From: Heterotrichella gracilis
Lineage: Eukaryota; Sar; Xanthophyceae; Tribonematales; Xanthonemataceae
DNA: 64,000 nt
Reading direction: 5' to 3'
Assembly: GCA_032358255.1 (NCBI GenBank)
Contig: JAULBX010018746.1
Span: forward strand, 1-64,000
Of the stretch, positions 8,172 through 64,000 are shown in pieces. The stretch's first letter is position 1. Each line of letters opens with the position of its first letter. The position numbers and the translations under genes were made by a program. The notes below the pieces were generated by a model. The model made no database searches. It was not told where the DNA came from and worked only from the letters and a program-made list of their open reading frames with translations.

Positions 8172-11100
8172 TCAGGACATGGCCTTGCTGAACCCCGCCA
8201 TGGCCCTGACCCACATGGAGAGGGTGTCCAGGTCCCGCCTGTCGGTTGGGTACTTGATCACCTTGTCGGAGGAGGAGGGGAGGAACACAAGGGTGGGGAA
8301 GGTGACCAGGCCCAGCTTCTCGGAGGCAAACTCGCGCTCGATGTCTGCCTGGAACTTGACCACGCTCACGTTGCTGCCCTGTAATTGCTCCGCCAGCTCG
8401 TTGTAGGTGGGGTCAAAGGCCTGCGGGGGGAAATGTAGGGTTTATTCTCTGTTTTGAAGATTTATGTAAGTTAATTTTGTTAATATTGCCTCTGTGTACA
8501 AAATAAATAGCGGGTGACTGGCGTTTTGACAGGCACCAACCTGTCAACCATGCGCGCACAGCTCTAAAATGATTGCCATGGTCTAGCAGCTCACTTGCAT
8601 TCCCGCCCACACCAGTTCTGCCACTTGCCACTGTGCGCTTACCACCAATCAGCGCATGCAGCCATTCCATACCTAGCAAGAATGGCCGCCGGTTCATAAA
8701 AATTATAAAACAATATCCAATTTAATTTCATTTAAGATGTATCACATATGCCCTACCTGGCAGAACTGGCACCAGGGCGCGTACAGCACCGCCAGCGTGT
8801 CCTTTTCCCGCTTGCCGCTCAGCAGGCCCTCCATCCCCGCCTTGTCCATGGGGATCACCGCGGGGCTCGTGAACAGGTCTGGGGATTCCTTCTTGGCCTC
8901 GCCCTCTGCCACCTGGACGATGTTGCCGGAGTGCAGGCCGCACTCCTTGCCTGTGCAGTGATGTGAGCGTTAGCAGGCGCCATGGGAAAACTGCTAGCTG
9001 GGGGTCACAATCAGCATGCACCGGCTTATGCCAAATCTTTGTGACAGCAGGAGGACTCAAATACATCACGTGATATATTACAGTCCTCCTGATGATGGAG
9101 GCAAAACAAAACCATTGGCAAAAATAGTTCTTGTCCTCATGCACGAGTGAGGAAGCCATGGGAGTGAAGTAAGCTGAGCAAAGCATTGCACACGTACTTG
9201 CTGCGTCCTCCCACCACCAGCGCCCCTCGCGCTCCAGCTGGTTTGGCAGCACCGCCTTGGTGCATGGCTCGCAGCCAATGGACACATAGCCGACAGAGTG
9301 CAGCTCGTTCACGGGCACGTCCTGCACAGCCAAAAAAAGCGGTGTAAAGCGCACGGGCTGAAGGACAGGCAATGCATGCCATGCATGCGTCATGCTGTCT
9401 GCGTATTGGCCACATGGATGCTGGCCCCGCACGCAATGTGAGGGACCCCATGCAACCATGCTGCCTGGATCCAAATGCCCTGCAACATGATATCCCCTGC
9501 GCGCTTCCCCCCAATTGCCATCTGAATCCAAACCCCGTCCTGGGCCTTTGTAGCCGGGCAAACATCGCCAATCTGGATGCATCCCATCTAGGGCAGGCAC
9601 GTGACTGTGCAAACACTGGCATCCCATCCTCTGCCTCTTTTGCCTGCACCCCACGCCCCACACCGACCACGCCCCCGCACCCACCCTTCCCCGCCCACCT
9701 GTATGTGCAGGAGGTTCCACAGCCCAGCAGACGTTATGTTAGACAGAGGGTTGTACTTGGTCATGTCAACCCCCCTCACACACACACACATACCCCCGTG
9801 GCACACCCAAACACCATCATGCAACACCGCACCGATCCACCAGGGCGCATCTCCCCCCTGCCAGCAACCCCACCATCCATCTGTACATATAATCCCCAAC
9901 CCCATCCCACCCCACCCACCTGTACGCGCAGGAAGTTCCACACCTCGGCGGATGTCATGTTGGACAGGGGGTTGTACTTGATCAGGCTGCCAGGGCCGCC
10001 CTCAAGGCCCTCAAACACAGGGTCAACCTGCACAACAGCTGGCGGGTTGGCACATGGTCTAATGGTGCACCCAGTGCCACATGCACTTTAACAAGTGCAA
10101 CATATAAAGACATTATCCTCCAGTAGGAGGCCTTTCATTTTTTCCGCTTGGTAATCTTGTGGCAGCACTGGAATTCACGGAGCCCCACTTCATGGCTGCT
10201 CGTTACAAAAGACTTGAGCAGAAACACACCCAGAAATGGTATAGGCAATGCCAGACAGGGCTGGGTGGCCAAAGCTGATAGAAGTCCGCAAGTTGTCCAT
10301 CTGAGTGCAACTGATGAAGCGCATGTAGTGGACAAATCACTCACCTGCACCACAGGCACTGCGCTGCGGGTGCCGGGCGACTGGTCCTTGCGCTGCCCGG
10401 TGATCCACGCCTTGAAGAGCTTCAGCTCGCGACGCAGGGGCTGGACCTGTTGGAGAGGTGTGGGGCATGGGTTGGTGAATGTTATCATTGAAAATGTATG
10501 GGATACATGGCATACATGGGATGCCTGTGCTTGAACAACTTCAGCTCACGGCGCACCTGGTGGGGTGGGGTGGGGTGTGGGTTTTAAGTGGGTCAAGAAA
10601 AACAAAATTATTTTTTATTTTTGGTAAAACCTTCTGTATATATTTTAAAATGATGGGGTGGTCAGACGAGGCCGGGGGGGGGGGTGATGGAGGGGGGATG
10701 AAGGAGCGATGGTCAGGTTGACAAGGCATGTGTGGCATGTTTCACAGTATGATTAAGAGTTCTGACTTTCAGGCCTCCATGTATCTATAAATCTGTCCAC
10801 ATGGCCCTACTTCAGGCATGCGCTCCTAGTGATGAAACTGCAAATGCCCATGCGTGCATGGCTCATTCACGAGCATGCAGCCCTTGCGCCATGCCAACAT
10901 CGTATGAGAACACATTCAGCCCCACTGTATCCATACATCCTCCACTGCGTCGCATGGCGCATTCAGGCCATCCGCATGCCATGTCACATCCGCCATGCAC
11001 ACCACACCGTGCCTCGATGCTACCCCCCCACACCCCCCTTTTCTCCCTTCATGTCGCCTACCTTCCTCACTCTGCAGCACTCGGTGTGGCCATCCTCGTA

Positions 11101-13045: not shown

Positions 13046-16000
13046 ATGGCTGGGGTGGAGAGCAGCGCTTCCTCTCAGAGTTCAAACTACTCTGTGAATA
13101 GCTCTGCGAACTCGGTGACAAGGGATAGGAAGCGAGATAAGATAGGAAGGATGTTCCAGAGCATAGCTGACTCGGTGGCCAAGGTATGTGTGCCTCTGGG
13201 CCCCGGTTTCGTCTGTGTGCCTTGGTAAGGGGCCAACAAGGCTTAACGCTGGCTGTCGTACCCGTCGTAGGCTGTGCAACAAGGGACCAAGAGTGAGAAG
13301 TCGAGCCAATGGTTCAACCCAGAATCGTTTGTCGCTCAAAAGGTGAGGTGCATAGCAGGGCTGTGATTGGGACCCACATGCATGTGAAAGGGTGCTGGTG
13401 GGGGCCAACCCTGCCAGGTTGGGTATGACGCACACTTCCTGTACCAACCCACTTTCAGTGTTGTTGTCATGCATACAAAACGCAATGCATGCAGTGCACG
13501 TCTGTACAAGCACTGGGGAGTGCTGAGATGCATATCACTGCTCAATGGTGTCCAACTCTGTTGACCTCCTTGCAGCGAGAGTGGGCGAAGCACAACAAGC
13601 TAGCTCCCATTGAGTGGCCAGCAAAGCTCTTTGAGCACTTCATCGTTGTGGTGAGTTGTACAACGGGTTTCAGTGTCGTTCCTTCACTGGCCCAAACACT
13701 CTAGTGACCTCACTCCCACCTCAACGTGCACTCACCCGTGTGTTGGGCGCACGCAGGGCCTCCCCCCCACCACAGACATCAAGTATGTCATTGCAGACAA
13801 GGAGGCAAAGGCCAAAGGTAGGCATGGGGCAGGCAAGCAGCTTGCATCACAGAGGGACTCTATTGACAGAGGTTCCCATAGGGCTGATACCTGGCAGTGG
13901 CTTGTGAAGGGCAGGAAAGCATGGCGTGGGGCCCACTGTTAGTGGACGCATATCTGAGAAGGGCATGCATACAGCTGTACCTGTGGGTTGCATCTCACTT
14001 GCTGCTTGGTTGGTGGATGCGTCCCTCTGGGGGCATGCATGTAGCTGTACCTGTGGGTTGCATCTCACCTGCTGCTTGGTTGTTGCAGCGCACCAAGCTG
14101 GCCTTGGGTTGGAGGTGAAGACACAGGAGCAGCTGCCACCGCCTCACGCGCGTGGTGGAGGTGGGCTCAAGCCAGAGGTAAGCAACATATGCTGCTCTCA
14201 GAGCTTCAGTCCTTACACACCTGGGCGGGTGTCTGGGGAAGGAAAGGTTTAAAGCGCCCGCCACAGATGGCAGTCCCGAAGGAAACAGACAGGGTGCCTC
14301 AGGTGGCGAGGCGTCCAAAAGGGGGAATCACAGAGCATATCATAGCGCCCAAAGACGAGGTCCACATTGCAAATTAGACCGTCGTGGTAGCAGGGAGGAT
14401 AGCCTTGTTGAGCATTGGCGGGAGCATGGGTCACCAACAAAGCGTGGATCACATGGCATAGCAAAGCAGAGCTTTGTCGAGCAGTGGAGGATGCAAGCCC
14501 AAGTGCAAGCCCTATGCATTGCAGGGTGCGTAGTTGTGGCACAGCGTGCACAGGTATCGGCTGGCCATGCGCCCAAAAGCGGGGCACGTAAGGCATAAGG
14601 CATAGCAGGAAGCACACCTCGTCGAGCATCGCAGGGCGCGTAATTATCACCCCTCCACCCCTGCACAGGTGCTGCTGCAGTACCCTGAGGACAAGCCGCT
14701 GGACCCCCCAGCTGACTTCCTGGCCACCTTCTGCTTCCCGCACGGGGTTGAGTGCAAGCTGCTTGAGCGCACCCCCAGCATGAGCTCGCTCAACACGCTC
14801 ATCTACGACCAGACCTACAGCACCCACGACGACCACTCCTTTGTGTTTGAGCTCAAGGTGGGTTGCTGTGTGCACACTTCAGGGTTTAGGGTTTACAGTT
14901 TAGGGTTGAGGCACCTGCTGCGTCTCAGGTTCCAAGGGTTTAGGGTTTGAGCTCAAGGTGGGTTGCTGTGTGCACACCTCAGGGTTTAGGGTTTGCAGTT
15001 TAGGGGTGAGGCGCCTGCTGCGCCTCAGGTTCCAAGGGTTTTGTGTTTGAGCTCACGGTGGGTTGCTGTGTGCACACTTCAGGGTTTAGGGTTTACAGTT
15101 TAGGGTTGAGGCGCCTGCTGCGCCTCAGGTTTCAAGGGTTTTGTGTTTTGACTAAAGGTGGGTTGCTGTGTGCACACCGTACTTGAGGTGCAGGTGGGGG
15201 GGTGTTGGCACTATGGAGGCGCGCTGCACTGGGAGGTCCACGATATACTTGAGTTGACAATTGGCAAGCAGCGGTCAATAGGGGGGTACTGTGTGCCTCG
15301 GCTCGACTCCTGTAGTGCCACAAGTGTTCTATACCCTAGTTCTTTACCCCTGGTGTGCCAGAGTCCTCATCCTGAACCCTAAACCCTTGCTGTGCCCCCG
15401 GGTGCCCTCACCCTAAACTGCAAACCTCAAACTCCAAACCCTGCTGCGCCCCAGGTGCCCAACAGCAACAAGCTCCCCGTCTACGCATGTGCCGCTACGC
15501 CGAGGAGCTGGTGCCCAAAACCCTAACCTGCAAACCCTAAACCCCAAACCCTGCTGCGCCCCAGGTGCCCAACAGCGATAAGCTGCCGGTGTACGGCATG
15601 TGCTGCTATGCCGAGGAGCTGGTCCACCGGCCGCCCGCCATCGCCAAGGACAAGTTCCCCAACGCAAAAATGCCGCTCAGCCGCTACCTGGTCTCCGCGC
15701 CCCGCTGCTACTGCCTGGTCACCAACTACCCCTTTTTCGACCTGCACTTCCGGGTGCTGCAAGCGCTGCTGGGCATGGAGCGCCTGGAGCGCATCACCTC
15801 GTTCACCAGCGAACAGCAGGACGGCCCCGCCGCCGAGGCGATGCCGGCGCGCGCCGCGCCCGCCACCCGGCCGCTCCCCATGCTGCCCACCATGCCGAAC
15901 CAGATGCCCAAGCGGTTCTACGCGCCGGCCGCCGAGCGGCGGCTGAGCGCGGATCGGGAGAAGGACCGGCCGAGCTACGCCGGCGGGCCGATGGGGGCGG

Positions 16001-19000
16001 CGGCGGCATCGGCATCGGCATCGACGGCGGCGGCGGCGGGGGTGCCGTCGAGTGCGGAGGAGAGGGCGGGGTCCAATGCGGTGGCTTCGAGCACGGGGGG
16101 GGGCGCGCAGGAGCTGCCCGGGGGGCATGGGTCTTGTGACAGCTTCAGCAGCTTGGACCCCGAGACGCCTGACAGGTAGGGGGAGGGGCTGGGGTTGGGT
16201 CTGGGTTGCATGCACTCCTGTCCCCATCAACCCGCCGCCAAGTGCCAGCCGCATACAAGCCTCCGCCAGGTGGCCACTCTAGGTGGATGCATCGCTACCT
16301 GGGGCACGCACGGAGCCATGCTGCGCACCCAATGGCAATCCTGTGCTGGCGCTTGGGATAAACCCTGGGCGTGTGGCGCCTGTGCTCACGCAAGGCTGTG
16401 CCACGTGCAGGGCTGGGCGAAAGGCGGCTGGGGGGGACACAGGAGGCAAGGCCCAGGGGAGCAAACAAGAGCTACCGCCCGGGCTGGCGTCTGGGGAGGT
16501 AAGGACGATGCCGATGGGGATGCATGTGGGGATTGTAGCCAGAGAGTCGACTACAGAACAAAGTGTGGATCATGCGCTGTTATTTTTGGTCCTGGGGGCT
16601 GGCGTCTGGGGATGGAAGAATGTGGTGCTGATATGGATGCATGTGGTGGTTAGATCATGCGCTGTACTGACTGGTACATGCATGCATGCGGGGATTGTGT
16701 TTAATGTGATGTTGCGTGAATTTCTCGCCCAATCCTGTCGACCATGGGCAAATTGATGGCAGCGTCAGCGTCTCAACCTACTGTCAGCGCCCTGACCTTC
16801 CATTTTAAAGCTCATGCTAGTCACATGTATTCCAGCACGACAGCAGATCAGCAGCCCGTTTGCACAATTGAAGCCATGCAATTCTACCCTGGCACTGGAT
16901 CCACCATTTGGGGCTCTCGCGGGATCTGAAGGGCCTGCACCTTGTTTTCACCTATACACGGCTTCCACGTGTGGGGATCAAATCCTCTGCCTTGAGATCT
17001 CTATTGACCAGGGCAGCCCATGTGCACCCACACCCTTCATCCCCTTCCTCTAGCGTACGCACATTGCCCACGATTGGGGATGACTGAACCCCTGATTGTA
17101 CCGCCGGCAGGGCGCCAAGGGCCACCATCGGCGCACCAGCTCGCTGTCTGGTCGGAGCGAGTACCTCAAGCTTGCGCAGCACCGGCTACAGAGGGTTATG
17201 GAAACGGCATCCACAAAGCAGCCGTCGCCGCTGCCAAACCAGCCACAAGGTACAACCCTAACCCCTAAACCCTAATCAGCCATGGCGGCTGCCAAATCAG
17301 CCACAAGGTACAACCCTAAATCCTAATCAGTTGTCGCCGCTGCTAAAGTAGCCACAAAGTGCAGTATTAGAAGGGGAAAGTATGCATTTAAATGTACCAG
17401 GGAAACTGCAAGATATGGTTTTGTGGGTGCAAATGTGTTGGGTGCTGCACGACTCCAAGATGATCCTGGGCGTGCACAGTGCTGCTCCTGGGGTAGCCGG
17501 TTCGCATGCCATGCCACACACTGTAAGTCCTACACACCTCGAGTTGCAGAGGGGGACAATAGTGGACAGGGGGGTATGGTAGGACATAGTGGACAGGAGG
17601 GTTGTACCTCCCTCTCGGCTACCTCCCCTCCATCAAGTAACGCGCGTTTCAAGGACAGGCTGCATAGCAGTTTATTAATTAATCTTCCATTCATTCAATT
17701 ATTGATTTGTTTATTATTCGTTTATTTATTTGATTACTTGCAGACGGGGATGCCGGCATGGATATGCACACTCGCACCCTGAGCGCCGCCAGCGACCCGG
17801 GCTTCCCTTCCACCAGCGGCCCCAGTGACCCGCCAGGGCCTGGGAAGCCGCTCCCCGCGCTGCCAGCCGCGCTGCGCCAGTCGCCAGGCACCAAGTCGCC
17901 CACCAAAGATGGCACGGTGCGTGCAGATGCATGCCAACCCCTACTTTTTTGTACACGTGTATTAGACCTTATTAAAGCAGTTTGACGGTGCATATGGGGT
18001 GCATACCTTCCTGTCCTCATTCTGGGGCGCAGTGGGTCAAAACGTACATCGGGGCCCGCACCTAATGCATACCCTTTCAAGCAGCATACGTAGCAATACA
18101 AGAATGCTCGAGTTGATTGTTTTATGAAGCAACTTACTTGTGTACATAGTTTTAAGATATGTGCAACGTGTTGTAAATATCCTGTACTCATGGGCCTGTC
18201 CCCTGCTGCTGCAGAACGGCAAGATGAGCCTGAGTTCCCTGGAGGAGGCCTGCAACCCTAAACCCTAACGCCAAAACCTAAACCCTAGACACTAGACACT
18301 AAACGCTGCTCACACACACACCCCTCACCGCAGAACGGCAAGATGAGCCTGAGCTCGCTGGAGGAGGCCTGCAACCCTAAAACCCTCATGCTGAACCCTA
18401 AGCTTCAAACCCTAGAAGCTGCTCATGTGCATCTCCCCACCGCAGAACGGCAAGATGAGCCTGAGTTCCCTGGAGGAGGCCTGCAACCCTAAACCCTAAA
18501 TGTCAAACCCTAACCCTTAAACGCCACTGCTGCAGAACGGCAAGATGAGCCTGAGTTCCCTGGAGGAGGCCTGCAACCGGCTGCAGGCCATGCTGACCAC
18601 CACCGACGAGGGCGCAAGCTTGGAGCAGCGCGTGTTTTCGCCTGGGCAGTGGAGCGTGGTGCCTGACCGGGCCAGGAGCAACTCCCTGGCTGTGATTCAC
18701 CAGTACTTCCAGACGCCGGTGCCCGAGCCTGGCGTGGAGGTGAAGATCCAGCTGGAGAACATGGCGCCCTTCAGCTTCACGCGGCCAAAGGTGGGGTTTG
18801 GGGGGTTTCTGGGGTTGTGGGTTTAGGGTTTTGTGGGCCAGTGGAGCATGGCGCCTGACCGCCCAGTGAGCAACTCCCTAGCAGGCATCCACCAGCTCCC
18901 AGGATCGTAAGCCCGCCGAGCACATGGCGAACCTGTGCCGCAGTCTCAGCCTGGACAATTGCTGCTTGCAATATGCTGTACTCTTCACCCACCAAATGAA

Positions 19001-20709
19001 ATGTTTTTTCCCCATCATTTGACAGACCCGATTCGACAAGGGCTTCAAGGTGGCCCTGCGCAACACCGTGGCTGCGGTGGACCTGGAGGCCGCAGAGTGT
19101 GAAAAAAACACCAAAATCTCCCTTTTTTTTCTTGAATCTCTAGGATCAAGTATTGATATTCCAAACAATGCTTCATTCGGTGATATGGAATATCCAACTC
19201 AAAGCTTCTCCTGCGCCACAGGCCCGGTTCGACAAGGGCGGCAAGGTGGCCCTGCGCAACACCGTGGCCGCCGTGGACCTCGAAGCCGCCGAGTGCCTGC
19301 GCCACTGGACCATCGCCGCCCTGTGCCGCACCCTCAGCCTGGACAACATCCTGCTGCTGGTGGCCTCGCTGCTGCTGGAGGGCCAGATCGTCATCTTCTG
19401 CCCTAACCTGGGGATGCTGACTGCCATGGTGCTGGCCTGCATCCCGCTCATCGCACCCTTCTCGTGGCAGAGCACCTTCCTGCCGGTGCTGCCCGAGAAC
19501 ATGCTGCTGCTGACAGGTGGGTGGGGGGTGATATGTGGATGGTAAAATGGGGAATTGGAGGTTTTTGGGTGGGGTGGTGGAGTAGTAATGTGCAGGCGTG
19601 GGGATGGAGGAGATTTGGATTAAGGTGGGTGGGAAGGGAGGGGCGTGCATCCCTCTCATCGCGCCCTTCTCATGGGAGAGCACCTTTTTGCCGGTGCTGC
19701 CCGAGAACATGCTGCTGCTCACAGGTGGGTGGTGGGGTGATGGGGGTATCTAATGAGGGAAGTGGGGCAGGTGGAGGGCGCAAGCCATAGAGGACAGGGC
19801 CGCTGTTCTGGCTTGCGCTGGATAGTGTGAAACAAACAAACAGACATACATTCTGCATTCCCAGCTGTCATTGGCGCATTGTGTTGCGCGACCCCTGAAG
19901 GGCACACACTTGGGACACCAGGCTTACAAATGTCATGACGCATGTTATTAACCCCCTTACGGCCCCCATTTGCAGAGGCGCCCACGCCCTTCGTGCTGGG
20001 CATGCAGTACAAGACGCAGGAGGTGCGGCAGCGATGCAGCAGCGTGGTTCGCGTCAACGTATACAAGAACGCGGTCAAAAACGCCGGCAACCTGCCGTCG
20101 CTGCCCCGCGAGAAGGCGCTGGTGGCGTCGCTCACCGGGCCTTACTCCATCCTGCGGGCTGTGGGCAAGGAGCGAACCAACGGCAGGCCATGCACCAGCA
20201 TCACCGATGTGCAGCGGGGCGCGGCGGAGGCGTTTCTGCAGGTGGGGGTTATGGGGTACACATGTCCTGGTTTGGTGGTTTGATGCTCTTCCCATGTGCA
20301 TGTGACCAAGCTCTAAATCACAACATCCCCACAGCTGTCCAAATATCACTAGGGTATGAACCAAAACCCTAGTAGCCAAACCCTCATCCTAATTCTCCCC
20401 CTTCCAGGTTCTGTCCAGCTACTACCTGGACCTGTTTGGCAACCTGGAGGCGCACACTTGCAGACCCTAAAACCCCTCACTTAAAACCCTAAACACTTTC
20501 CCCCCTTCCAGGTTCTGTCCAGCTACTACATGGACCTGTTTGGCAACCTGGAGGCGCACACCATCACCGACGTGCAGACCTCTGAGCGCGTCAGCCTGCT
20601 GCTCAAGGACTCCTTCGTGGAGTCGTTCCCGGTGAAGGACCGGCCCTTTGTCAAGCAGTTTGTGGAGACGCAAATGTTTGAGGAGTACACGGACGCAGTG
20701 ATCACTTAG
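13046..20709 (+). CDS. DENN-domain protein (probable Rab GDP-GTP exchange factor)
   Basis: Fourteen exons (13046-13183, 13271-13342, 13576-13650, 13757-13817, 14089-14177, 14669-14857, 15565-16175, 16411-16498, 17111-17249, 17744-17916, 18536-18790, 19222-19516, 19976-20241, 20512-20709) join in phase into 882 residues. The start MAGVESSASS was chosen because it opens the first exon in the conserved frame. The uDENN part begins around LFEHFIVVGLPP; the core DENN module shows LLLEGQIVIFCPNLGMLTA and PFSWQSTFLPVLPENMLL followed by EAPTPFVLGMQ, a hallmark of the family. A poorly conserved linker (about residues 240-480) is rich in Ala, Ser and Pro. DENN proteins activate Rab GTPases in membrane traffic; the target Rab cannot be told. 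Exon 8 is the least certain, chosen because it alone restores phase. The introns hold the densest set of exon-end copies and TTTAGGG tracts in the window. Confidence 0.9.
13942..14081 (+). repeat. 70-bp tandem duplication next to DENN exon 5 acceptor
   Basis: Two copies of a 70-bp unit containing GGGCATGCAT, AGCTGTACCTGTGGGTTGCA and GCTGCTTGGTTG stand just upstream of the exon 5 acceptor (exon starts at 14089). The second copy runs into the functional acceptor; the first has lost it. Confidence 0.8.
14330..14668 (+). repeat. degenerate repeats in DENN intron 5
   Basis: The 3' half of the 491-bp intron holds several diverged units containing GTCGAGCA or GTTGAGCATTGG followed by a GCAGGG-like sequence. 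Together they resemble copies of one ancestral segment. Confidence 0.4.
14841..15190 (+). repeat. four 100-bp tandem copies of the DENN exon 6 donor end
   Basis: The 3' end of exon 6 and its donor (TTTGAGCTCAAG|GTGGGTTGC) occur at 14848, 14948 and 15048 and, mutated, at 15148, exactly 100 bp apart. Each unit also holds CAGGGTTTAGGGTTTACAG-type telomere-like sequence. Only the first copy joins exon 6 to the rest in frame; the others supply additional potential donors. Confidence 0.92.
15445..15545 (+). repeat. decayed copy of the DENN exon 7 acceptor end
   Basis: At 15453 a CCCCAG acceptor is followed by GTGCCCAACAGCAACAAGCT, matching the start of exon 7 at 15565. The copy has lost a base and cannot keep frame. 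It runs into CCCTAACCTGCAAACCCTAAA just before the true acceptor. Confidence 0.88.
17222..17352 (+). repeat. three copies of the DENN exon 9 donor end
   Basis: The end of exon 9 and its donor (CAGCCACAAG|GTACAACCC) recurs at about 17285 and, weaker, at 17335, with CCCTAACCCCTAAACCCTAA between them. Units are about 50-60 bp. Confidence 0.85.
18195..18581 (+). repeat. four copies of the DENN exon 11 acceptor end
   Basis: An acceptor CAG followed by AACGGCAAGATGAGCCTGAG and the rest of the first about 45 bases of exon 11 occurs at 18215, 18334, 18446 and 18536. In the first three copies the sequence changes to CCCTAAACCCTAA-like repeats exactly after GCCTGCAA. Only the fourth copy continues as the real exon. 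Confidence 0.93.
18831..18966 (+). repeat. decayed pieces of DENN exons 11 and 12 side by side
   Basis: Bases 18838-18893 resemble an inner part of exon 11 and 18907-18962 an inner part of exon 12. They follow a GTGGGTTTAGGGTTTTG tract at the exon 11 donor. Neither piece is open in the right frame. Confidence 0.65.
19015..19105 (+). repeat. copy of the DENN exon 12 acceptor end
   Basis: An acceptor CAG at 19025 is followed by about 75 bp nearly identical to the start of exon 12 (real start 19222). It reads TRFDKGFKVALRN where the gene reads ARFDKGGKVALRN. The copy then breaks off into unrelated A-rich sequence. Confidence 0.88.
19648..19730 (+). repeat. copy of the DENN exon 12 donor end
   Basis: About 80 bp repeat the end of exon 12 including FLPVLPENMLLLT and the donor ACAG|GTGGGTGG (real donor at 19516). 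The offset is about 209 bp. Confidence 0.9.
20400..20460 (+). repeat. copy of the DENN exon 14 acceptor end
   Basis: The start of the last exon (VLSSYYLDLFGNLEAHT against VLSSYYMDLFGNLEAHT) occurs at 20408 with its own CAG acceptor, 104 bp before the functional one at 20512. The copy then changes to ACCCTAAAACCCC sequence. Confidence 0.92.
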
Positions 20710-20719
20710 GCAGGGGCGT

Positions 20720-20752
20720 GGTTTAGGGTTTAGGGTTTGGGTTAGGGTTGGG
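20720..20752 (+). repeat. telomere-like TTTAGGG tract after the DENN stop codon
   Basis: Several units of TTTAGGG, TTTGGG and TTAGGG follow the stop codon. A second, decayed copy of the last codons and stop (20768-20797) comes after the tract, and a third trace lies at 20860-20882. Confidence 0.85.
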
Positions 20753-20797
20753 GCGCAGATGGGTGGGTAGTATACGGATGCGGTCATCGCCTAGATT

Positions 20798-21860
20798 GCA
20801 GCTTGGGAGCAGGTGTGGGGGCTCGGGGGAGAGGGTGGAGGCGCAGGTGTGGGGGGGATGAACAGATGCGAGCGCCACCTAGGCATGCAAGGGTGCGGAT
20901 GCTACACCTAACCATTTGGCGTGCACAGTGCACCCATTTTTTGTTTTTACGTTGGCGATCATTGCATGTCACACGCAGCGTATCCTTGTTGCTGAGGCTG
21001 GAAGGGATGGGGGGGGTATAACCTTGGGGGACACTAGTGCGTGCAGAGTAGACCACAGGAACCGGTTAAGACGACAGGAATAGATCACTGTTCATTTGGT
21101 TAAGGCAGCAGGGCAATTTACTGCAAACTGGGGCAGGTGTGGGTGTGTGGGCGCTGGTGTGTGGGTTTGGGTGGGGGGGGTTGTCTGGGATGCGAAGCTT
21201 CGTTGAGAGCGGTGGTCATGACTTGCTATGCTTCTACGCAGTTGGCTGGCGGTGAAGGTGCAGGCGCTTTTCTTGGTAGGTAGATGGGTTAGTGGGTCGC
21301 AACCTAGCAGGACCTTGTTATGTTTTATAATCTCAACATTTTGCCGTTAAAGTTATGGCGCACGCCGGTATCGGCTTGTCAATGCTGAATGCAAAATTAT
21401 TGGAGCCTTCCTTGTAGTTGTAATACTTCTTCATCTGATGATTTCATTGGAAAAGCGTCTATATGCTGGCCGGGCAGCATTGCTATACATGGCGCCATCC
21501 ATGCTGAGCAGCCCAGGGAATTGTGACATGATCTGCCCATGCGCTGTACCGCAAATGGTGGTGAGACTCGGAGTCTCGACACCAACACTGTGTTTCGGAA
21601 TATCTGTTACAGTGAGGATGCAGGTGCACTGCCAATTTGGAGCCTTTAAGGCTCAGCCCCTAGTTGGGGCGACCTAAGCATGCCAACGAGATTGCATCTG
21701 CGTTATTGGTTGCTGTAAATAGTCCATTCCCTGCTGACAACAGATCACGATGGTGTGTGCCCCCGGCGAGGGTCCCCTCCAGGGCCCCGCCAAACACCCA
21801 GAAAATAAGCAGCCTCTGCAACCGCTACCCCAAATCCCCAACCTGAACCCTGAGCTTGCC
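20798..21860. other. convergent intergenic stretch between DENN and REX genes
   Basis: No gene is seen. The 3' ends of the two flanking genes meet here. The first part is G-rich with GTGTGGGGG-like runs; the rest shows no recognisable structure. Confidence 0.5.
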
Positions 21861-39557: not shown

Positions 39558-43510
<3,953 letters not shown>

Positions 43511-44499: not shown

Positions 44500-44611
44500 C
44501 TGAACCAGCGGTGGTGCAAGTGGACCCCCCCGCCACCTGAACCAGCGGTGGTGCAAGTGGACCCCCCCGCCACCTGAACCAGCGGTGGTGCAAGTGGACC
44601 CCTCCCCTTGC
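44500..44611 (+). repeat. 37-bp tandem repeat, nearly three copies
   Basis: The unit contains TGAACCAGCGGTGGTGCAAG followed by TGGACCCCCCCGCCACC and is repeated head to tail. The last copy diverges after GTGGACCCCT. Confidence 0.88.
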
Positions 44612-44939: not shown

Positions 44940-44984
44940 AGGGTGCACACACTGTTTAGGGTTTAGGGTTTTTAGGGTGCACAC
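44940..44984 (+). repeat. telomere-like tract flanked by 11-bp direct repeats
   Basis: AGGGTGCACAC at 44940-44950 is repeated at 44974-44984, and TTTAGGG units lie between them. This is the simplest example in the window of telomere-like sequence with a flanking duplication. Confidence 0.85.
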
Positions 44985-46429: not shown

Positions 46430-51652
<5,223 letters not shown>

Positions 51653-53029: not shown

Positions 53030-56000
53030 TTAGGCCCTGGGGAATTGGACCAAATCCGGATGGCTGCCCACTTGTGGCACTCGAAGGCTTGGGAGCACGG
53101 CTACCGCTGCATGGGGGGGTCGCCTCAGGTGCAGGGCGCCAAGTATGTCCTGGTGGGTGCTGGCTTTAGGCCCCAGCAGCCGGCTGCACAAGCGCTGGGC
53201 TGCCTTTATGGCCACTGTTAGCTCGGGAGTGCTCATGTCCTGTGGCAGAGAGAGAAACAAAAGTTAGATTTTCAATTTATGGCTTTTCTTGACACAAATA
53301 TAATTGAACATGTAACCCTGTGCTTGATGGCCATCACAGCTTTGCAGAGCTGTTGATCACAAGCCTTGGCACAGTGTGAGAGGTACACATTTGCAGCCCT
53401 GTTCATATTGCAAGACCTTGGCAACGCCACTGTCGGGTACCCCGCCCATCCTAGAAATGCAACACAAACCAGCACGCAGCATCGCCACGCACAGCCAGCA
53501 GCAGACAAGCAGCATGGCACACATTTGCCTCACCCATTCCTCGCCCTACCTAGTACCCTCTCAACCGCAAACGTACTACCCTCCTGACATCCTAAAACCC
53601 TACCTGGTACCCCGTGAGCTTGGCCAGCATGGAGGGCCAGAAGGGGATGGCGCCCCGCTGCCGCCGCTCAGCGTACACGATGGCCGCCGCGATGACTGAG
53701 GGCCGGCAGTTGAGGAAGGTGGTGACGGCAAGCGCCTCCCGCACAGCCCTGAGCGTGTTGCCTGCCACAGCCTGCGACGCCGCAACATGCTGTTAAATTT
53801 TGTTTAATTGACCTTTAAAAAGGGTTAGCATCCTAGATATAAAGAGCAAGTTCCCCTACCGACAGAATTCAGCAAAAAGAAATTCCTATACAACAGCCTT
53901 GTTACAAACTATCTTGAGGATCCACTCTGCCAAGACAGAGCCTGGTTGGGCTAATCATTGGTGAATGCATCCCACAAGAAGCACGCACGTGTCCATGGGA
54001 TGTCAAGAGCATGTTTACTGACCTGCGACGCCGTGGCGCTCAGGAAGTTGCACCCCATGCGTTCCATGTACAGCTTGGCGCAGCGCAGGGTGGAGATTGC
54101 CGCTGTGTCGTTGCCCAGCACTTGGCGCATGTTCCACTCCATCTGATGCAGGGCGCCCGCCTGCAGGGGGGGAGGCACACAAAACATGAGTCGGCTGGGC
54201 TGGTGAGGGTTTGTATTTGTGTTCATTAGGGTTTATTTGGGGGTCTGGCGCTCCATGTACAGCTTGGCGCAGCCCAGTGTTGGGGGAAGTTGCGGTGTAC
54301 TCTGCCTGGCTTGCTAGGCCATCCCCTACCACCACTGCTACCGTCCGAGCCCCACCAGCTGCTCATGTAACCCCTTACTCCAAGCTCCTCAACCCTAAAC
54401 CCTACGCCCTGAAACTTCTAGTAAAAGCATACCTGGAAGCCCGTTGCATGCTTCGCCTGGGCTCGCTAACCCCGTCCCCCATCCCCCTGCTGAGGCGTCA
54501 CCACCACCGCGGCCACCGTCATGAGCCCCATCAGCTGGTCTCAAAATCTCCATAAACCCACAAAACCCTAAACCCCAAACTCTCTCCCCCCAAACCATAC
54601 GAGATAGGCATTTACCTGGAAGCCCGTGGCCTGTTCCGCCTGTGCGTCGCTGGGCCCCGCCCCCGCGTCCCCCTGCCGCGCCGCCACCACCACCGCTGCT
54701 GCTGCCATGAGTCCCATCAGCTGGTCCTGGACCTGCAGGCTGGTGGACATGGTGCGGTCCATGAGCAGCACCGCGTCATGGCCAACCTCCTCCGGGAGGC
54801 TCAACCTGTGGGGAAGGGAGGGAGAGGGGTGAGTATGGGGGACGGAAGATGCGCCCAGGCATCATGTGCAGTGCGTTGCGCCAGTGGTGAGGTCTGAAAC
54901 GCATCGGTTTTCCCCCGGGAGGATTGGGCATTGTGCGGTTCATGAGGAGCACTGGATCATGGCTATCCTCATCAGGGACACCCAGCCTGCCTCCCCAAGA
55001 TGGTGGGGAGGTGAGGATGGAGGAAACTTTCCATGTAACCACCGCACGCGTGTATACAGACAATGCATGCATAAAGCAATTCTCTGCACTCGAGACGGCG
55101 AGTTATGGCTGCACTCCTGATTGCATAATATTACGCGCACCTTGCTGCCACGTCAAGTGCCCCTGCCATGAGCTCCCCCCGCCGCTGCAGGTAGCCATAG
55201 CTCATGTTCTGCAGTGCCAGGCAGTGCGTCTTCTCGAAATGCGCCACCGCCAGGAAGGCCCCGCTGCACCTCAACTCCACTGCCACCTCTTTGCTGCTGT
55301 CGAAATCGTCCAGGTCCAGGCAAAGCCCCTTGAGATTGGCGGACAGCTGGTCAATGGTGCTGCCCTGCAGGTGGAAATGGATATATTCTGATTTATGAAT
55401 TTTGCTTGTATGGAAATTTATCTTCTACTTTAGAAGTATGAAATGAATGCATGTATGTTAGCTGTGCAGATCATTATGCAGGAAAAGGGAATTCCATCCT
55501 TGCAAAAGTGAAATGCTTTTACAATACGTTTTGCGCCTCACCTTTTGTGGAGGGAACACATCAGCGCAGGGGAAGAAAGCAAAGAGGTGCGCTTCAAAAG
55601 CCCCAGACAGCATCCATTCTCCCACAGCATCCCCATCCGCCTCCAGGGCCCCGCCATACACGCCCTCTGTGGACGGCCTGCAGCACAATCAGCATGAGTC
55701 AGTCGGCACATCATATACGAATCAGCAAGAATTAGGGACTGCATCTGTAAGTGTAGCATGCATCAATGACTGTATGCTTACTGTCACGCCCTATGATTCA
55801 GTGGCCCATTGATACAACATTGACAAGGCCAAAACATTCCGAACGCCAGTACAGTTGACAAACCTATGTTGTCCACCCACTGGGATCCAAACGAAGCTCG
55901 ACCCACCAGCTGTTTTTGCCATTTGTACTGCTGCAATTGCAATGACCACCCTGTAATATCGCAACCATTGGCAGCTTTGAATGAGACCTGGCCTGCCTGT

Positions 56001-59000
56001 ACCTGAACGGCGCCCCCCATCTGGCCATCATTGCCGCCACGGCCTCCTTGACCACGAGGTTGCCCTGCTCCCTGCTGCCCTTGCCCTTGTCGGTCACGAT
56101 CAGAAGCACGCCAGGCAATGAACCTGGCAGGAATGGGAAGGGAGAGAATTGAGGGCGGTGTGCAATGAACAGGGTTTCTCACTCCAGGGCAGGGGCATAG
56201 CCATATTGCACGGGGGCATTATGTTACCAAAAAAAACATATCAGCATACAACTCATGAGTAACGGTACCAGGCGTGCCAAGACAGGGCGATGGTGCAAGC
56301 TGACTAGACGATAAATATTAAACAGATCAGCTGACGATAATTACTAAACCAATCAGCTTGTACCAACTAGACGCTAATTACTAAACCAATCAGCTTGTAC
56401 CAACTAGACGCTAATTTTTAAACCAATCAGCTTTGGTAAGTGACCAATCTATCAATTTGACAGCTGTTGAATTAGTCGATTAGTCACCAATCAACTAGTT
56501 GGTCAGGCAATCAATCACTAATCCAACTCCCTGTTCTGCTGGGTCGAATATAATCTAATCCAGCCAAGGACAGCCAAGACTTGCGGCGCACCTGGCCCCT
56601 GGCGCAGCACCACCCCCCCACAGCTCCATGATCCAGGTGTACAGGCTCAGCATGAGTGGTTTGGGCAAGCAGGGCAAGGGTGACTAACCAATGGACTACA
56701 CGCTGGACGCATGTAACTGGGATCAAGCTACCAAGATACCCCAAGCCAAGCAAACCAGGCTTTGCGGCGCACCTGGCCCCTGGCGCAGCACCCCCCCCCA
56801 CAGCTCCATGATCCAGGTGTACAGGCTCAGCATGGCCACTCCAGCGGTGGTTGCGTGCAGGTTGACGTCGCAGCGTGCCTGGCTGCGGCCCCCCACGCGG
56901 GTCTGCTTAAAGTGGCCCTCCTCAAGGGACACCCTGCGTGTGGAAAGCAGGTTAGGGATTAGGGTTTGGGTGGGGATGGGCCTGAAACAGGCTTGCGAGT
57001 TGCGTGGTTTTCAAAGTTGGGTGCCCTGGGATTTGACTGATAATACATGAGATTAATAGGGGGGAAATGAGTATTGTATCACGCAGGAATTCCAGGTGCA
57101 ATCTTAACCCTAGCTAGGGACGTTGTAGGGGAGAACAGCACCCCACCAAGCCCACCTGAGCTGCAGGGCTTTCCGCTGCGCCCAGATGACCCGCGTGCTC
57201 CACAGCGCATCCCGAGATATAGCCAAGAAAGAGAGCCAAAACCAAACAATTGAATATCTCACAGAGTTGGAAATTCAGGTGTACCACTACATAAGAAAGA
57301 ACCACTTTATGCCCACCTGAACAGCTGCAGCGCCTTTCTCTGCGCCCAGATGACCCCCGTGCTCCACAGCGCATCCACGATGGCATTATACACAATGGCA
57401 TCAGGGGCACAGCCCTGCATGCGCATCTGCTCATACGCCAGCAGTGCTCGCCGCCACTGCCCCCCCTTCTCCAGTGCACTGATGAGCGCGGTGTATGTGA
57501 CCACGTCGGGTGTGCAGCCCTGGGCGTGCATCTGCTCAAACACCTCGCTGGCCTTCTCCCACTGGGTGCCTGCAGGGTAGGGTTTAGAGTTTAGGATTGA
57601 GGGTGCCTACCACACCTAAGTGCCTGCACTTTAGGGTTTAGGTTTAGAGTTTGGGTGGCTTGTTCAGTGCGCTGATGAGCGCGGTGTATGTGACCACGTC
57701 GGGTGTACAGCCCTGGGCGTGCATCTGCTCAAACACCTCGCTGGCCTTCTCCCACTGGGTGCCTGCAGGATAGGGTTTAGAGTTTAGGATTGAGGGTGCC
57801 TACCACACCTAAGTGCCTGCACTTTAGGGTTTAGGTTTAGAGTTTGGGTGGCTTGTTCAGTGTGGTGATGGGTGCGGTGTATGTGACCCGTGATATGTCT
57901 GGGGTGCAGCCCTGGGCGTGCATCTGCTCAAACACCTCGCTGGCCTTCTCCCACTGGGTGCCTGCGGGGCAGGGTTGGGGTTAGGGTTAAGGTTTATGGC
58001 TGGAGTTTAGGACGCCTTTTGTCAAGTGCCAGCCTCCTTGAATGCCAGCGGCTTGGGGTTCAGGGCTCCATTCCCCCAGTGTTATGAGAATGTAAAAGAC
58101 TAGGTTTCATGGTTCTACAAAGTGCCCATGATTTGAGGGCTAATGGCGCACCTTGTGCTCAGGCTGAGATGAGGGAGTTGCATGAAATTGTGTTTGGCTT
58201 GCACCCCTCCTTGCACATCTCCTTGCACATTTCCAACGCCAGCTATTCTAGGGTTTACAGCTTAGGGTTTAGAGCTCCGGGCGCACCTTGCGCGCACGCC
58301 GTGATGAGCGAGTTGAAAGTCACTGTGTTTGGCTTGCACCCCTCCTTGTACATCTCCTGGAACAGCTCCAGCGCCAGCTCCCACTGCCCAGCCTTCTCGC
58401 AGGCGCTGATGAGCGAGCTGTAGGTGATCACGCTGCGCTCGCACCCCTTCCACACCATCTCCTGCAGGGGAAAATCAAGGGAAAAAGCAGGCGTCAGCAG
58501 GGAGAAGATTTCCCCTGTAGCAATCATGGCAAAAGCCCTACGGGGGATGTGCAAAACGTTGGAAGTTTTATTCAAGCAGCATCTCATGAGTGGTCAGGTT
58601 GCACACATTCCCTGCCATGGTCATATTTTCAAGACGTAGTTTATGCACATTGGACAAGTATACTTCCAATAACATCACTAGGAAAGCTCACCCACCTGGA
58701 ACACCTCCATCACCCTGTCCAGCTGCCCCGCCTTGCCGTACGCCGAGATGAGTGCGTTGTAGGTGGTGGCGTTGGGCGTGAACCCCGCGTCCAGCATGCG
58801 CGTGTACACCGCCACCGCCTCCCTTGGCTGGTTGCACATGTTGCAGGCGATGATGAGCGTGTTGTAGGTGCGCAGCACTGGCTCAACCCCCTGCGATAAA
58901 ACCATAAACCTTTGTTAACTAGAAGGGATATATCGTTGATTGGATACATAAGCATGCCTGTTTGGCATGAGTAGAAAGAAATCCTGTACAGACGATGAGT

Positions 59001-60829: not shown

Positions 60830-62492
60830 CTGAGTTAATGTCATTTACCTGTACAGAGAGGCACACATTGGTTAAGTGTAGCGCGGTGGGGTAGAGTGAC
60901 AACACGCACACGAAACAACGGCATGCCACACCGGCTGAATAACCACCACCCACCTGCATATCCTCGCTGAACAGCGCTGCAGATAAAACCCTGTCAAGCG
61001 CTAAGCAATTCCTTCGCAATGCACGTTTTGCTGGTCCAGAGGGTATTCTTTGGAGACCTGGAAAAGCGTTTGCTTGCCTTGCTTTTGTTCAAGCACAAAG
61101 CGAGTGCATTGTCTGAGTCTCAGATGCGCTGCAGCACGCCGCAGGGCCACAAAAGTCTGCGGCCCAAACGACAGATTTGGAGGGCGCTGCTGATGTGGCA
61201 CTGAACAATTATGTAAAGCGGGCACTGGAGACAGTTCAGATTCGGCGTATGAGATCAGATTTGCCCAGTCATCAATTCACGTGGGCCCCCATAGCCACAA
61301 GTCAGCCACAAGCACTTGTTCACTTTCGCCCCCAACAACGTTTCTCTCTCGTTTTAAAGCATCCTTTTCCCATCAAAGGGGCACCAAAGCTAGGGGGCTT
61401 CCTGGCTAAACAGGAGTAAAGTAAGGTGGGCACCAAAGCAGCGCACTGCATACTGGATGTCATTTGGTGCAATAGCAATCCACAGGCATTCCATTAGCCA
61501 TCACCGTCCCAGGCAGCCATCTGCCAGTGTGCACGGGCAGTTACAACACGCAACAAGCAACCTGGCTAGGCCCAGCGGCAGTGTACATGAGGTTACAACC
61601 AAGGCACCTTTCATCTTGTATGTGTATACAGCTGCTTGCCCGTGAGAGCACTAATTGGTAAGTAAAAGCAAACTTTGGCATGATATTGAGCCCGGGTTGG
61701 CTCCCTCATGAATGTCTCAGATTTCAACCCCAACCACAGTCCAGCAACCTGAAACCCAGCGGTGTGCATCCGGCTGATAACAGTGAAAGCCGCGACCCTA
61801 GCACAGGGCGCATGGACAAAAACGCGAGTGTTGCAGGTGTGAAGTACAGCGCATCTCAGCCCACCTTACCCAGTTAAAATTGCTGGTGATTGAAGTGAAA
61901 TACATTATAGCATCGCTATCTGCACACAGCCCAGGGTGTGTGCAGACGGGTGGATGCGCACGAAAAGAACACAAAAAAAGCCCACACCAGCCCTGCAGGC
62001 TAGAATGGAAACAGATTCAAGCCATGGAAAATTGGTTTCTTACCCCCAAAAATTAACACTGTGATGCGATATGCCCAGGCGCCTTTCACCCACCCATACC
62101 ACAATCCCATGGCCTACGCCTTTGCTGACCCACATACATCCCCCGCCACCCCCGTGCCGCCTTGCTGCCAGCCACCCAACTCCCAGCCCAGTCCTTGCTA
62201 CACCGGCTTGTGTGGATACCGCTGCTGCTACTGCTGCACTTGTTGGCCTGCAGCAGGAATCCCTCCCGCTGGCAAACGCCACCCCCTCCCCCTCCACCAT
62301 CGTTTCCAACACCCACCTCAGGCACCCGGTCCAGCAAATCCTACGCGGTGTTGACCATATATCAACAAAAAAAACTCTCTGCTGCTGCTGCTGCTGACTT
62401 GCTGGCCCAGCATCTCCTGTTGCAGGTGTCCACACCACACCCATCTCAGGCCCCATGTCCAGCATAACCCTAACCCTCCACCCTGTTTAGGG
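60830..62492. other. region upstream of the PPR gene to the CCS1 3' end
   Basis: An open piece at 60954-61019 ending in a GTGGGT donor could be an upstream PPR exon, but its frame closes quickly. Beyond it no gene is seen. The part 62310-62465 holds diverged copies of the CCS1 3' end around CAGGCACCCGGTCCAGCA and a (CTG)6 run near 62380. Confidence 0.4.
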
Positions 62493-62508
62493 TTAGGGTT
62501 TAGGGTCG
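62466..62508. repeat. inverted telomere-like tracts at the CCS1 stop codon
   Basis: CCCTAACCCTCC is followed by GTTTAGGGTTAGGGTTTAGG on the same strand, so two telomere-like tracts face each other. The CCS1 stop codon lies inside the second tract. Confidence 0.9.
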
Positions 62509-64000
62509 ACCACCTCCACCTCCACCACCATGTCGGGCACCACCTCAGGCACCTGGTCCAGTATGCGCGATAGGTCCTGCTCGAAGAGCGTAGGTGCGCG
62601 GTTGGTGTTGGCGGCCACGCACAGGGTGGTGCCGTTCTGCAGCGCCCACACTTGCGAGTGCGACCCGTAGCTCATCAGCGTGGCAAGCAGCATGCCTGCG
62701 GGGTGGGGGTTCAGGGTTTAGGGTCCGTGGATTAGGGTTTAGGGTTTATGGCTAACATTCAGGAACACGTGAGCCGTAGCTCATCAACCTGTGGGTTGGA
62801 GATGCAGGGTTTAGGGTTTGTGGGTAGGGTTGACAAAATGTGAGTCATGGCTCGTCAGTATGCCTGTGTGGTGGCGGTGGTGGGGGTACCATCAAGAAAC
62901 AGCCACCACATCCGCACGAGTACAATGCTCCAGGGTACCGTGCACACATAACCCCCCTCCCTCCCCCATCCATGACTGTCTTTTAACTCATTGATCAACT
63001 GTATTGCATATTTTACATTAATTCCTCACCTGCAAATCCCAGGTAGACAATTGGCACCCCCGGGTCCGCCTTGAGCTCCATGCCTGAGCTGGCTATGATG
63101 CCCTTGATCACGATATCCATGCCCTCAACTGTGATGGGCTTGTTGGAGTCCACGCGCCGCACACCTGATGCATTTGCGAGACATTATTTTTAAATGATGC
63201 AAATGAGGAACGGGGTACCCAGAACTGCCAAAATGTGGGAAGGTCAAGGGCAAGAGCAGAGCAGGAAGGAGGGAAATTCAAGGATGCAAAGCAGCAGAGT
63301 CAATGGCTCAAATGTGGAGCTTTGAGCCAGACAATCGCGTAACCCCAGGAGACAAGGGAAGGCAGTTTAGGGTTTAGAGTTCAGGGTGTTGCCAGGGCCA
63401 CCCACCCTGCAACCTCTTGTTGTGGCACAGCATGGTGATTCAGGGCTTTGGGGTTTCATGTCTCAGGTTTTTGGCAGCGCCATCCACCTGCAACATCTCC
63501 CTTGCTGTCGTACAACGTGATAATTCAGGGTTGATTGGTTAGAATATAGGGTTTTGGCAGCGCCGCCCACCTGCAAACTCCCCCTTGCTGTCGTAGAGGG
63601 TGACTGTCTTGAGGTCCTGCGCAAGCACCGTCACCCCCAGCGGCTTGCCTGTGGAGGGGTCATCAGTGCCTGTGGGGATGAAGGTGGCCCACACGCGCTT
63701 CCCTGTGCCACGGAGGGGGTTCTGTCGGAAAATACTGTATGATGGGCGCTGTTGGTTGTTGAATTTATTTATTGTAAATAATATTTTGCATTGCATGTTG
63801 CTTATTTATTGCATACATGCCAGGCACGCTATTCCTGCCACTACCTCACCCAAGTTGGGAAAGCAGTAACCAGCTTGAGGAGCCCTTATGATGCTGCACC
63901 ATTACAAAGCTTGTTCTACTTGAAACAAAAAAAAGGAGCAATCTAACCAACTACTACATCAACTTGATAACCCGCTCACCAAAGGACTTCTCCATGGAGG
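62493..64000 (-). CDS. CCS1: CCS1/ResB-like cytochrome c biogenesis protein, C-terminal part
   Basis: The gene runs off the window; three full exons (63721-63571, 63164-63030, 62695-62493) and a fragment at 63980-64000 are visible. The protein ends with KRVWATFIPTGTDD, a Gly-Val-Arg-Arg junction, SSGMELKADPGVPIVYLGFAG, a membrane segment (MLLATLMSYGSHSQVWAL) and NGTTLCVAANTNRAPTLFEQ followed by ILDQVPE. This is the C-terminus of CCS1 (Ycf44), which with CcsA delivers and attaches heme to apocytochromes c6 and f on the lumen side of the thylakoid (System II). The conserved His of the heme-handling face may be the one in YGSHSQVWAL. The last codons read VEVVDPKP, with the stop inside a CCCTAAACCCTAA tract. 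Copies of exon ends lie at 62768-62875 and 63389-63525. Confidence 0.88.
62768..62875 (-). repeat. two decayed copies of the last CCS1 exon acceptor end
   Basis: GAGCCGTAGCTCATCA at 62770 and GAGTCATGGCTCGTCAGTAT at 62842 match the start of the last exon (ACCCGTAGCTCATCAGCG, 62665). TTTAGGG tracts separate them. Confidence 0.75.
63389..63555 (-). repeat. two decayed copies of a CCS1 exon donor end
   Basis: GGCAGCGCCATCCACCTGCA at 63473 and CAGGGCCACCCACCCTGCA at 63394 match the donor end of the exon 63571-63721. The units are about 80 bp and end in GTGATAATTCAGGG-like sequence. Confidence 0.85.

Follow-up and report, generated by a model that had tools for sequence, protein, structure and literature searches.

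We analysed a 64,000-nucleotide stretch of DNA from Heterotrichella gracilis (contig JAULBX010018746.1, positions 1 to 64,000; hereafter the window), in which the edges of exons, together with their splice sites, are repeatedly duplicated into the adjoining introns, often in the company of short tracts of the telomere-like repeat TTTAGGG or its complement CCCTAAA. The window has a G+C content of 53.6% and contains no N, and its genes identify it as nuclear DNA of a photosynthetic eukaryote. All figures given here come from this one window of one genome, from our own gene models and from events reduced by hand. Training a gene finder on the window's own sequence and imposing a lower limit on exon length yielded ten intron-rich genes on both strands, and the models were checked against Pfam and PDB:

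4842-6286: LHC-family gene, with PDB matches
minus strand: APS reductase gene, Pfam PAPS_reduct/Thioredoxin
plus strand: DENN protein gene, model checked against Pfam/PDB
minus strand: REXO-like exonuclease gene, model checked against Pfam/PDB
34742-37403: RBM39-like factor gene
minus strand: MetAP2 (methionine aminopeptidase 2) gene, PDB match at E 3e-162
plus strand: SIS-domain protein gene, read as GFAT-like (the GFAT label is our own reading)
minus strand: cyclin-like protein gene, model checked against Pfam/PDB
minus strand: PPR protein gene, model checked against Pfam/PDB
minus strand: ResB-like protein gene, model checked against Pfam/PDB

The core exon set used below was edited by hand: exons built from copies and doubtful terminal exons were dropped, and some exon ends were fixed by hand, for example 41617 and 26574. 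It delimits 56 introns with a median length of 332 bp and a total length of 22,209 bp, whose ends read GT in 55 cases, GC in one and AG in all 56, a near-universal GT-AG pattern that follows from the construction of the models. The intron that begins with GC in the model is REXO-like intron 26362-26573.

A sensitive local search of the whole window revealed 80 local direct-repeat pairs at E<1e-3, ten of them exon-exon pairs of the PPR gene, as against 0 in each of 24 shuffles that preserved dinucleotides within 1-kb blocks. Inverted pairs numbered 16, compared with 0-4 in the shuffles, and consisted of ten self-palindromes, five facing telomere tracts and one pair beyond the modelled genes; among these 16 pairs in the window there was no inverted copy of a modelled exon edge. 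The alignments showed that an exon end with its donor, or an exon start with its acceptor, had been copied into the adjoining intron, giving two to four copies. By hand the pairs were reduced to 31 events inside the ten modelled genes, of which 20 span or abut an exon edge (lie within 3 bp of it), four concern an exon interior and seven are intron-only; the figure of 20 is a low count, as event 63366/63447 was entered with shortened coordinates as intron-only and its full alignment spans the edge. Events that reach past the core spans were left out of the 31, namely 13938/14009, 20662/20747 (at the stop codon), 28783/28839, 44489/44563, 46263/46357, 56303-56433, 56562/56744, 57137/57298 and 62281/62509. 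The 31 events fall in eight genes (APS reductase, DENN, REXO-like, MetAP2, GFAT-like, cyclin-like, PPR and ResB-like). These results bear out an earlier first-pass annotation of this DNA, which had described about 25 such places in eight genes, with exon ends or starts and their splice sites in two to four copies, and had suggested counting flanking direct repeats against shuffled controls; within the window they exceed such controls. The individual duplications are as follows:

9673..9984, minus strand, APS reductase: exon end and donor duplicated downstream, 79% identity, no tract
14840..15178, plus strand, DENN: exon end and donor in four copies, period 100 bp, with sense TTTAGGG tracts
15375..15623, plus strand, DENN: exon start and acceptor in two copies, with sense CCCTAAA tracts
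16481..16651, plus strand, DENN: intron-only duplication, 79%, no tract
17216..17363, plus strand, DENN: intron-only repeat in three copies, with sense CCCTAAA tracts
18206..18578, plus strand, DENN: exon start and acceptor in four copies, CCCTAAA tracts between them
18644..18895, plus strand, DENN: copy of an exon interior in the next intron, adjoining a TTTAGGG tract, 78%
18923..19346, plus strand, DENN: upstream copies of an exon start (19022/19218, 88%) and of the exon interior (18923/19311, 83%), no tract
19434..19741, plus strand, DENN: exon end and donor copied downstream, 91%, no tract
20397..20561, plus strand, DENN: exon start and acceptor in two copies, 98%, with a 43-bp spacer that is 72% CCCTAAA tract
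20662..20882, plus strand, DENN: downstream copy of the coding end including its stop codon, alignment identity 63% (E 2e-8), TTTAGGG tract in the spacer, no splice site
22248..22383, minus strand, REXO-like: exon end and donor in two copies, sense TTTAGGG between them
23059..23157, minus strand, REXO-like: intron-only duplication with sense CCCTAAA tract
23739..23936, minus strand, REXO-like: 27-bp copy of an exon interior downstream
24449..24755, minus strand, REXO-like: exon start and acceptor copied upstream, 83%, no tract
24986..25205, minus strand, REXO-like: exon end copied downstream, sense CCCTAAA tract right after the true donor
26363..26498, minus strand, REXO-like: intron-only duplication, 74%, no tract inside
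28783..28873, minus strand, beyond the modelled genes: duplication with a 21-bp spacer that is 86% tract
40181..40317, minus strand, MetAP2: exon start and acceptor copied upstream, no tract
40788..40979, minus strand, MetAP2: exon start copied upstream, no tract
41205..41327, minus strand, MetAP2: exon end and donor, then a 38-bp spacer that is 97% tract (sense TTTAGGG), then the copy
41538..41630, minus strand, MetAP2: 27-bp downstream copy of an exon end with its donor, no tract; position of the exon end fixed by hand
42673..42942, minus strand, MetAP2: exon start copied upstream, no tract
48322..48452, plus strand, GFAT-like: intron-only duplication, 74%, with a short CCCTAAA-type tract
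50356..50446, plus strand, GFAT-like: exon end and donor copied downstream, no tract
54059..54280, minus strand, cyclin-like: 33-bp copy of an exon interior upstream, sense CCCTAAA tract in the span
54328..54726, minus strand, cyclin-like: exon end and donor in two to three copies, with sense TTTAGGG tracts
54744..55024, minus strand, cyclin-like: exon start and acceptor copied upstream, 70%, no tract
57466..57992, minus strand, PPR: exon start and acceptor in three copies, period 193 bp, with sense CCCTAAA tracts
58133..58379, minus strand, PPR: exon end and donor in two copies, 23-bp spacer that is 83% tract (sense CCCTAAA)
62281..62561, minus strand, ResB-like: downstream copy of an exon end, with a sense CCCTAAA tract following the first copy
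62695..62857, minus strand, ResB-like: acceptor region recurring upstream, accompanied by CCCTAAA tracts; classed as intron-only
63366..63603, minus strand, ResB-like: exon end and donor copied downstream, with degenerate tracts

Of the 56 core introns, 24 are touched by these events. Introns with events average 540 bp (n=24) and those without 289 bp (n=32; Mann-Whitney p=2.6e-5), and the start-to-start offsets of the 31 duplications, spacers included, amount to 4,332 of the 22,209 bp of modelled intron. The difference in length is consistent with the earlier proposal that the process lengthens introns, although long introns also offer a larger target. Events are unevenly spread over genes, with ten in the seven introns of DENN and none of the 31 in the ten introns of the RBM39-like and LHC-family genes. 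When the whole window was compared with itself at E<1e-3, only three matches lay more than 2 kb apart, two of them telomeric and one 39 bp long; within the 64 kb, no single sequence recurs at several loci in the manner of a mobile element or introner.

The position of the duplicated units relative to exon edges was judged against a survivorship null, in which events are placed so that the gene is preserved. Events inside exons would destroy the gene, and therefore edge-spanning units are often expected among survivors; by geometry alone they make up 33.7% of the gene-preserving placements. The 20 of 31 observed exceed this share (p=4e-4), although the excess weakens to p=0.014 on the assumption that exonic copies remain detectable 1.5-fold longer. 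Among the pairs of at least 85% identity, a subset that omits two events with hand-cut coordinates and hence no identity value, nine of the 11 pairs cross an exon edge (p=0.0015; 0.011 under the longer-detectability assumption). An earlier null, with a random template beside a random intron site, gave an expectation of 21.6% and p=3e-7 and was dropped as too generous. The preference for exon edges is real but modest. The first-pass annotation had each unit spanning an exon-intron border, which holds for the majority, whereas four events are interior and seven intron-only, and part of the preference is expected from survivorship. It had also noted that copies of exon starts lie upstream and copies of exon ends downstream; this is true, but it is no separate fact, because the copy must fall in the intron.

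We then turn to the telomere-like repeats themselves. The seven rotations of the repeat occur 53-82 times each, and AAACCCT is the most frequent heptamer of the window and AACCCTA the next; telomere-type repeats are present at non-terminal sites well above chance, as expected of interstitial telomeric sequence. If a tract is taken to be two or more hexamers from the repeat lying near one another, the window contains 81 tracts, 53 of them in core introns. No tract has its midpoint in a core exon, and the density is 2.39 per kb in core introns as compared with 0.90 per kb elsewhere, where unmodelled introns are included. A tract is present in 18 of the 31 event spans, against 9.2 expected from circular shifts along the introns, and 35 of the 53 intronic tracts, several of them from one array, lie in duplication spans, against 12.9 expected; in about 3,150 shifts, none reached 18 spans or 35 tracts. 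The DNA flanking the tracts is thus modified by duplication, as in telomeric sequence inserted at breaks. This link supports the earlier suggestion of a repair-like process that joins local duplication with telomere-like tracts, even though the tracts, then said to be usually present, accompany only somewhat more than half of the duplications. Tract centres also cluster within 40 bp of exon edges (21 of 53, against 7.3 expected). Seventeen of the 53 intronic tracts overlap no duplication span, and eight of these 17 likewise lie within 40 bp of an edge; tracts and duplications therefore overlap but are not identical. In six of 19 measured spacers, those starting after 18442, 20397, 20662, 28783, 41205 and 58133, the sequence between the copies is 72-100% tract. 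At 62466-62506, CCCTAA units are followed within a few bases by TTAGGG units, forming an inverted telomere-like junction.

The age of the copies and the constraint on them were assessed in 29 pairs, each with one exonic and one intronic copy (two pairs from one array), the reading frame of each exon being taken from the codon model. Mismatches in the exonic part numbered 61, 36 and 104 at first, second and third codon positions, over 496, 496 and 497 sites, respectively. By simple reasoning, two free copies would place about 33% of the mismatches at third positions, and one free with one fully constrained copy about 50%. The observed third-position share of 51.7% (104 of 201) differs from 33% (p=6e-8) and not from one half (p=0.67), and frameshifting gaps occur in seven of the 29 pairs; therefore the intronic copy evolves freely while the exonic copy is under selection. 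By the same figures, coding constraint on both copies, as in duplicated mutually exclusive exons, was not found in these pairs. Exonic identity ranges from 100% to 71%, 25 of the 29 pairs differ by 5-30%, and third positions differ by 21%. The copies are real, are decaying in the introns and are mostly not very recent, so that the process, previously called frequent and recent, is frequent in the window but recent only in part.

The tracts also obey a strand rule, which is new and absent from the first-pass annotation. Read on the sense strand, the tracts closer to the 3' than to the 5' splice site are CCCTAAA without exception (19 of 19), whereas those closer to the 5' splice site comprise 18 CCCTAAA and 16 TTTAGGG (Fisher p=1.6e-4, with tracts within one array not independent). 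The difference persists when each intron is counted once per orientation (12:0 versus 12:10, p=0.006). Both orientations are found facing each other in the DENN intron 14858-15564, in which the array at 14840..15178 contributes TTTAGGG on the 5' side and that at 15375..15623 CCCTAAA on the 3' side. In the introns of the ten genes, GGG is distributed 331:149 between 5' and 3' intron halves and CCC 179:273; TTTAGGG, at 16:0, is more extreme than GGG. With the tracts masked, intron 5' ends are still richer in G than in C and 3' ends richer in C than in G, whether or not the intron has tracts. The strand rule is not telomere-specific. A pure signature of telomerase was rejected as its cause, given the G/C skew that persists under masking, and so was avoidance of AG alone, since CAG is split 217:204 between the halves. 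The simplest reading is that tracts enter either way round and that, upstream of acceptors, TTTAGGG is removed again or not placed there to begin with. Missing as it is from 3' intron halves, TTTAGGG behaves like a motif shunned near acceptors rather than like the 3' splice site that the first-pass annotation saw it resemble.

As regards splicing, 24 decoy sites were mapped from 26 pairs and scored on a matrix built from the 56 introns. GT or AG is retained in 22 of the 24; 16 score within 2 bits of the true site or above it, and the other eight are weaker than the true site by 2.9-10.6 bits. Decoy splice sites, as had been predicted, are indeed created. Retention of the dinucleotide in about 19-20 of 24 would be expected by chance, on a rough reckoning from divergence, and there is therefore no sign that decoys are either removed or kept.

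Taken together, we think it probable, on balance, that the duplications are scars of a route of break repair common in this DNA, in which local duplication goes along with insertion of telomere repeats and the outcome is filtered by the need to splice. Staggered breaks or nicks would arise in genes; repair would copy or fill in some 30-140 bp beside the break, and the joining of the ends through filler would leave a duplicate in direct orientation. The plant-type telomere repeats seen in more than half of the events would most likely be added to the exposed end by telomerase. Survivors would be those events that leave one uninterrupted reading path, either within introns or straddling an exon edge, and in the latter case the extra piece of exon and its splice site would land in the intron and then decay. 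Selection at the RNA level, or else whatever causes the G-rich donor side and the C-rich acceptor side, may set the tract orientation tolerated near each splice site. The direct orientation, the units of tens of bp, the tract spacers and the one decaying copy fit break repair with duplication and filler. Several observations weigh against this account. Thirteen of the 19 measured spacers are only 0-65% tract, among them five of 102-174 bp that are only 4-29% tract. The arrays carry the tract within each unit, which makes the order of tract and duplication ambiguous, and the junctions, viewed by eye on the alignments, are too degenerate for the telomere register at the break to be counted. In addition, 13 of the 31 events have no tract in their span, and therefore telomere addition is not a required step. 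A stronger claim, which we regard as doubtful, is that duplication of exon edges with telomere healing is a main engine of intron growth in the lineage and recurs in a large share of its introns, and that the inserted tracts, sorted by strand, are recruited as branch-site or G-run signals, so that DNA of chromosome ends feeds the evolution of splice sites.

Alternatively, the tracts may have come first. Pre-existing tracts beside splice sites, with G-runs that stall replication, could lead backward slippage or unequal exchange to re-copy the flanking 50-150 bp, in which case the tract would be cause rather than filler. The tracts that overlap no duplication yet often lie close to an exon edge would be natural in such a scheme, as would the recurrence of the tract with the unit in the arrays at 14840, 15410, 18206 and 57466; however, the tract-free duplications are hard to explain by it, as are the sites at 41205, 58133, 20662 and 28783, where the tract is found only between the copies, and we consider this order of events unlikely. 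It is a little less likely still that selection maintains the tracts as splicing elements, with CCCTAAC or CCTAAAC acting as a branch site near acceptors and G-runs helping donors. The uniform CCCTAAA orientation near 3' splice sites agrees with such a role, and CCCTAA is indeed present at -45 to -13 of the acceptor in six of 26 tract-bearing introns, against one in an interior control and 0 of 30 in introns without tracts, the latter partly by definition. CCCTAA may thus act as a branch site, which lends indirect support to the earlier idea of a tract as a ready-made intron part. The general branch-like motif CTNAY is nevertheless equally common in that interval without tracts (13 of 30) as with them (11 of 26), and CCCTAAA is the commoner form nearer donors as well.

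The remaining explanations appear far less probable. Were both copies spliced alternatively as functional exon parts and the duplicates kept by selection, the many decoys with an intact dinucleotide and a score near or above that of the true site would be expected, but the codon-position pattern is that of a single constrained copy, frameshifting gaps interrupt about a quarter of the pairs (seven of 29) and a third of the decoys (eight of 24) are clearly weaker, so that we hold this very unlikely. Birth of new introns, by tandem duplication of an exonic segment and splicing from a donor in the first copy to an acceptor in the second, seems slightly more improbable again. Direct repeats at splice sites are a proposed signature of such gains in the accessible part of PMC11782384. 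The model, however, requires the copy to lie directly against the exon on the opposite side of the intron. Here at least about 160 bp separate the end of a donor-side copy from the next core exon (the shortest such case, 41538, is uncertain, as a small MetAP2 exon may be missing from the model), and at least about 115 bp separate the previous core exon from the start of an acceptor-side copy; moreover, the units include intron sequence, and the stop-codon event has no intron at all. Misassembly would account for tandem copies, and a few pairs are near-identical (18206/18527 at 100% and 20397/20501 at 98.4%); the divergence of 5-30% in the exonic part of 25 of 29 pairs and the codon phasing of the differences are unlike misassembly, which is extremely improbable as the source of the copies.

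Other observations on the window concern its further contents. The LHC-family protein encoded at 4842-6286 matches seven PDB sequences at E<=1e-20, namely six long LHCI chains from 9vfj, the best at 1e-34, plus a single chain of ordinary length, 7y5e_22; our guess is that it may be LHCSR-like. An Rfam scan returned nothing at gathering scores, and one scan of viral contigs with a MetAP2 exon as query returned no relative. GCATGCA (80 occurrences) and ATGCATG (66) belong to the most frequent heptamers. The segments 11379-11442, 26796-26860, 42444-42509 and 56433-56494, each 62-66 bp long, are self-complementary, and two repeats of roughly 90 bp in inverted orientation, separated by 1.1 kb (2158-2243 and 3328-3418), are perhaps the ends of a mobile element. 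Two distinct 37-bp tandem repeats were observed beyond the modelled exons, at 44489-44602 and 56333-56433.

Paired nicks give rise to short tandem duplications, and plant end-joining junctions contain filler DNA, both being known mainly from induced breaks. The window shares with them direct duplications of tens of bp and filler at the junction. To our knowledge, telomere filler and exon-edge survivorship form no part of these descriptions. If the process generalizes, each duplication, with one constrained and one free copy, would be an inner clock that allows genome-wide rates and ages to be estimated, would let the tolerance of splicing towards decoy sites be studied in a natural setting, and would show the frequency with which telomere repeats are incorporated at breaks in organisms other than mammals. 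Introns in Chlamydomonas and its relatives are long for the size of the genome, and their driver is likely ancient, according to the available text of PMC8226300; if the window is typical of its own genome, a partial answer to the cause of long introns may be visible here. The TTTAGGG-type motifs and the intron sizes of the window are also compatible with green-algal values in the available portions of PMC8226300 and PMC7046594. A match to Haematococcus in particular is not supported, because the motif reported from its scaffold ends is AACCCT (PMC7617258), in contrast to the TTTAGGG-type tracts seen here.

Among the literature surveyed, by titles and the openings of abstracts and mostly outside subscription journals, no account of exon-edge duplications with telomere tracts was found, which is weak evidence of absence, and a review devoted to interstitial telomeric sequences (PMC6410037) does not contain the string 'splic' in its accessible text. 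When introns are gained through break repair or tandem duplication, as presented in the accessible part of PMC11782384, direct repeats likewise occur near splice sites; those repeats are 4-30 bp long and pair both ends of the intron, whereas the aligned units in the window measure from 27 bp to more than 100 bp and stay on one side of the intron. The telo boxes of Arabidopsis and rice, for which telomerase and transcription-linked recombination have been proposed as the source in Arabidopsis (PMC3022908, available text), also place the plant-type telomere motif inside genes. In that text each is roughly the size of a single repeat unit, and their density is higher in 5' regions than within introns, whereas many tracts of the window exceed one unit and lie in introns near splice sites, with duplications; the corresponding densities here are those given above for core introns and elsewhere, in a window whose promoters carry no annotation. 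The closest parallel is with the short interstitial telomeric sequences of mammals, which, in the accessible portion of PMC2246262, consist of a few units away from chromosome ends, degenerate with age and are inserted at breaks, with flanking duplication at six of 130 rodent and four of 25 primate loci. In the window, by comparison, duplication spans take in 35 of the 53 intronic tracts and tracts cluster at exon edges, and priming by telomerase would have to be assumed. The best reading is that the window displays a dense form of this known interstitial telomere insertion.

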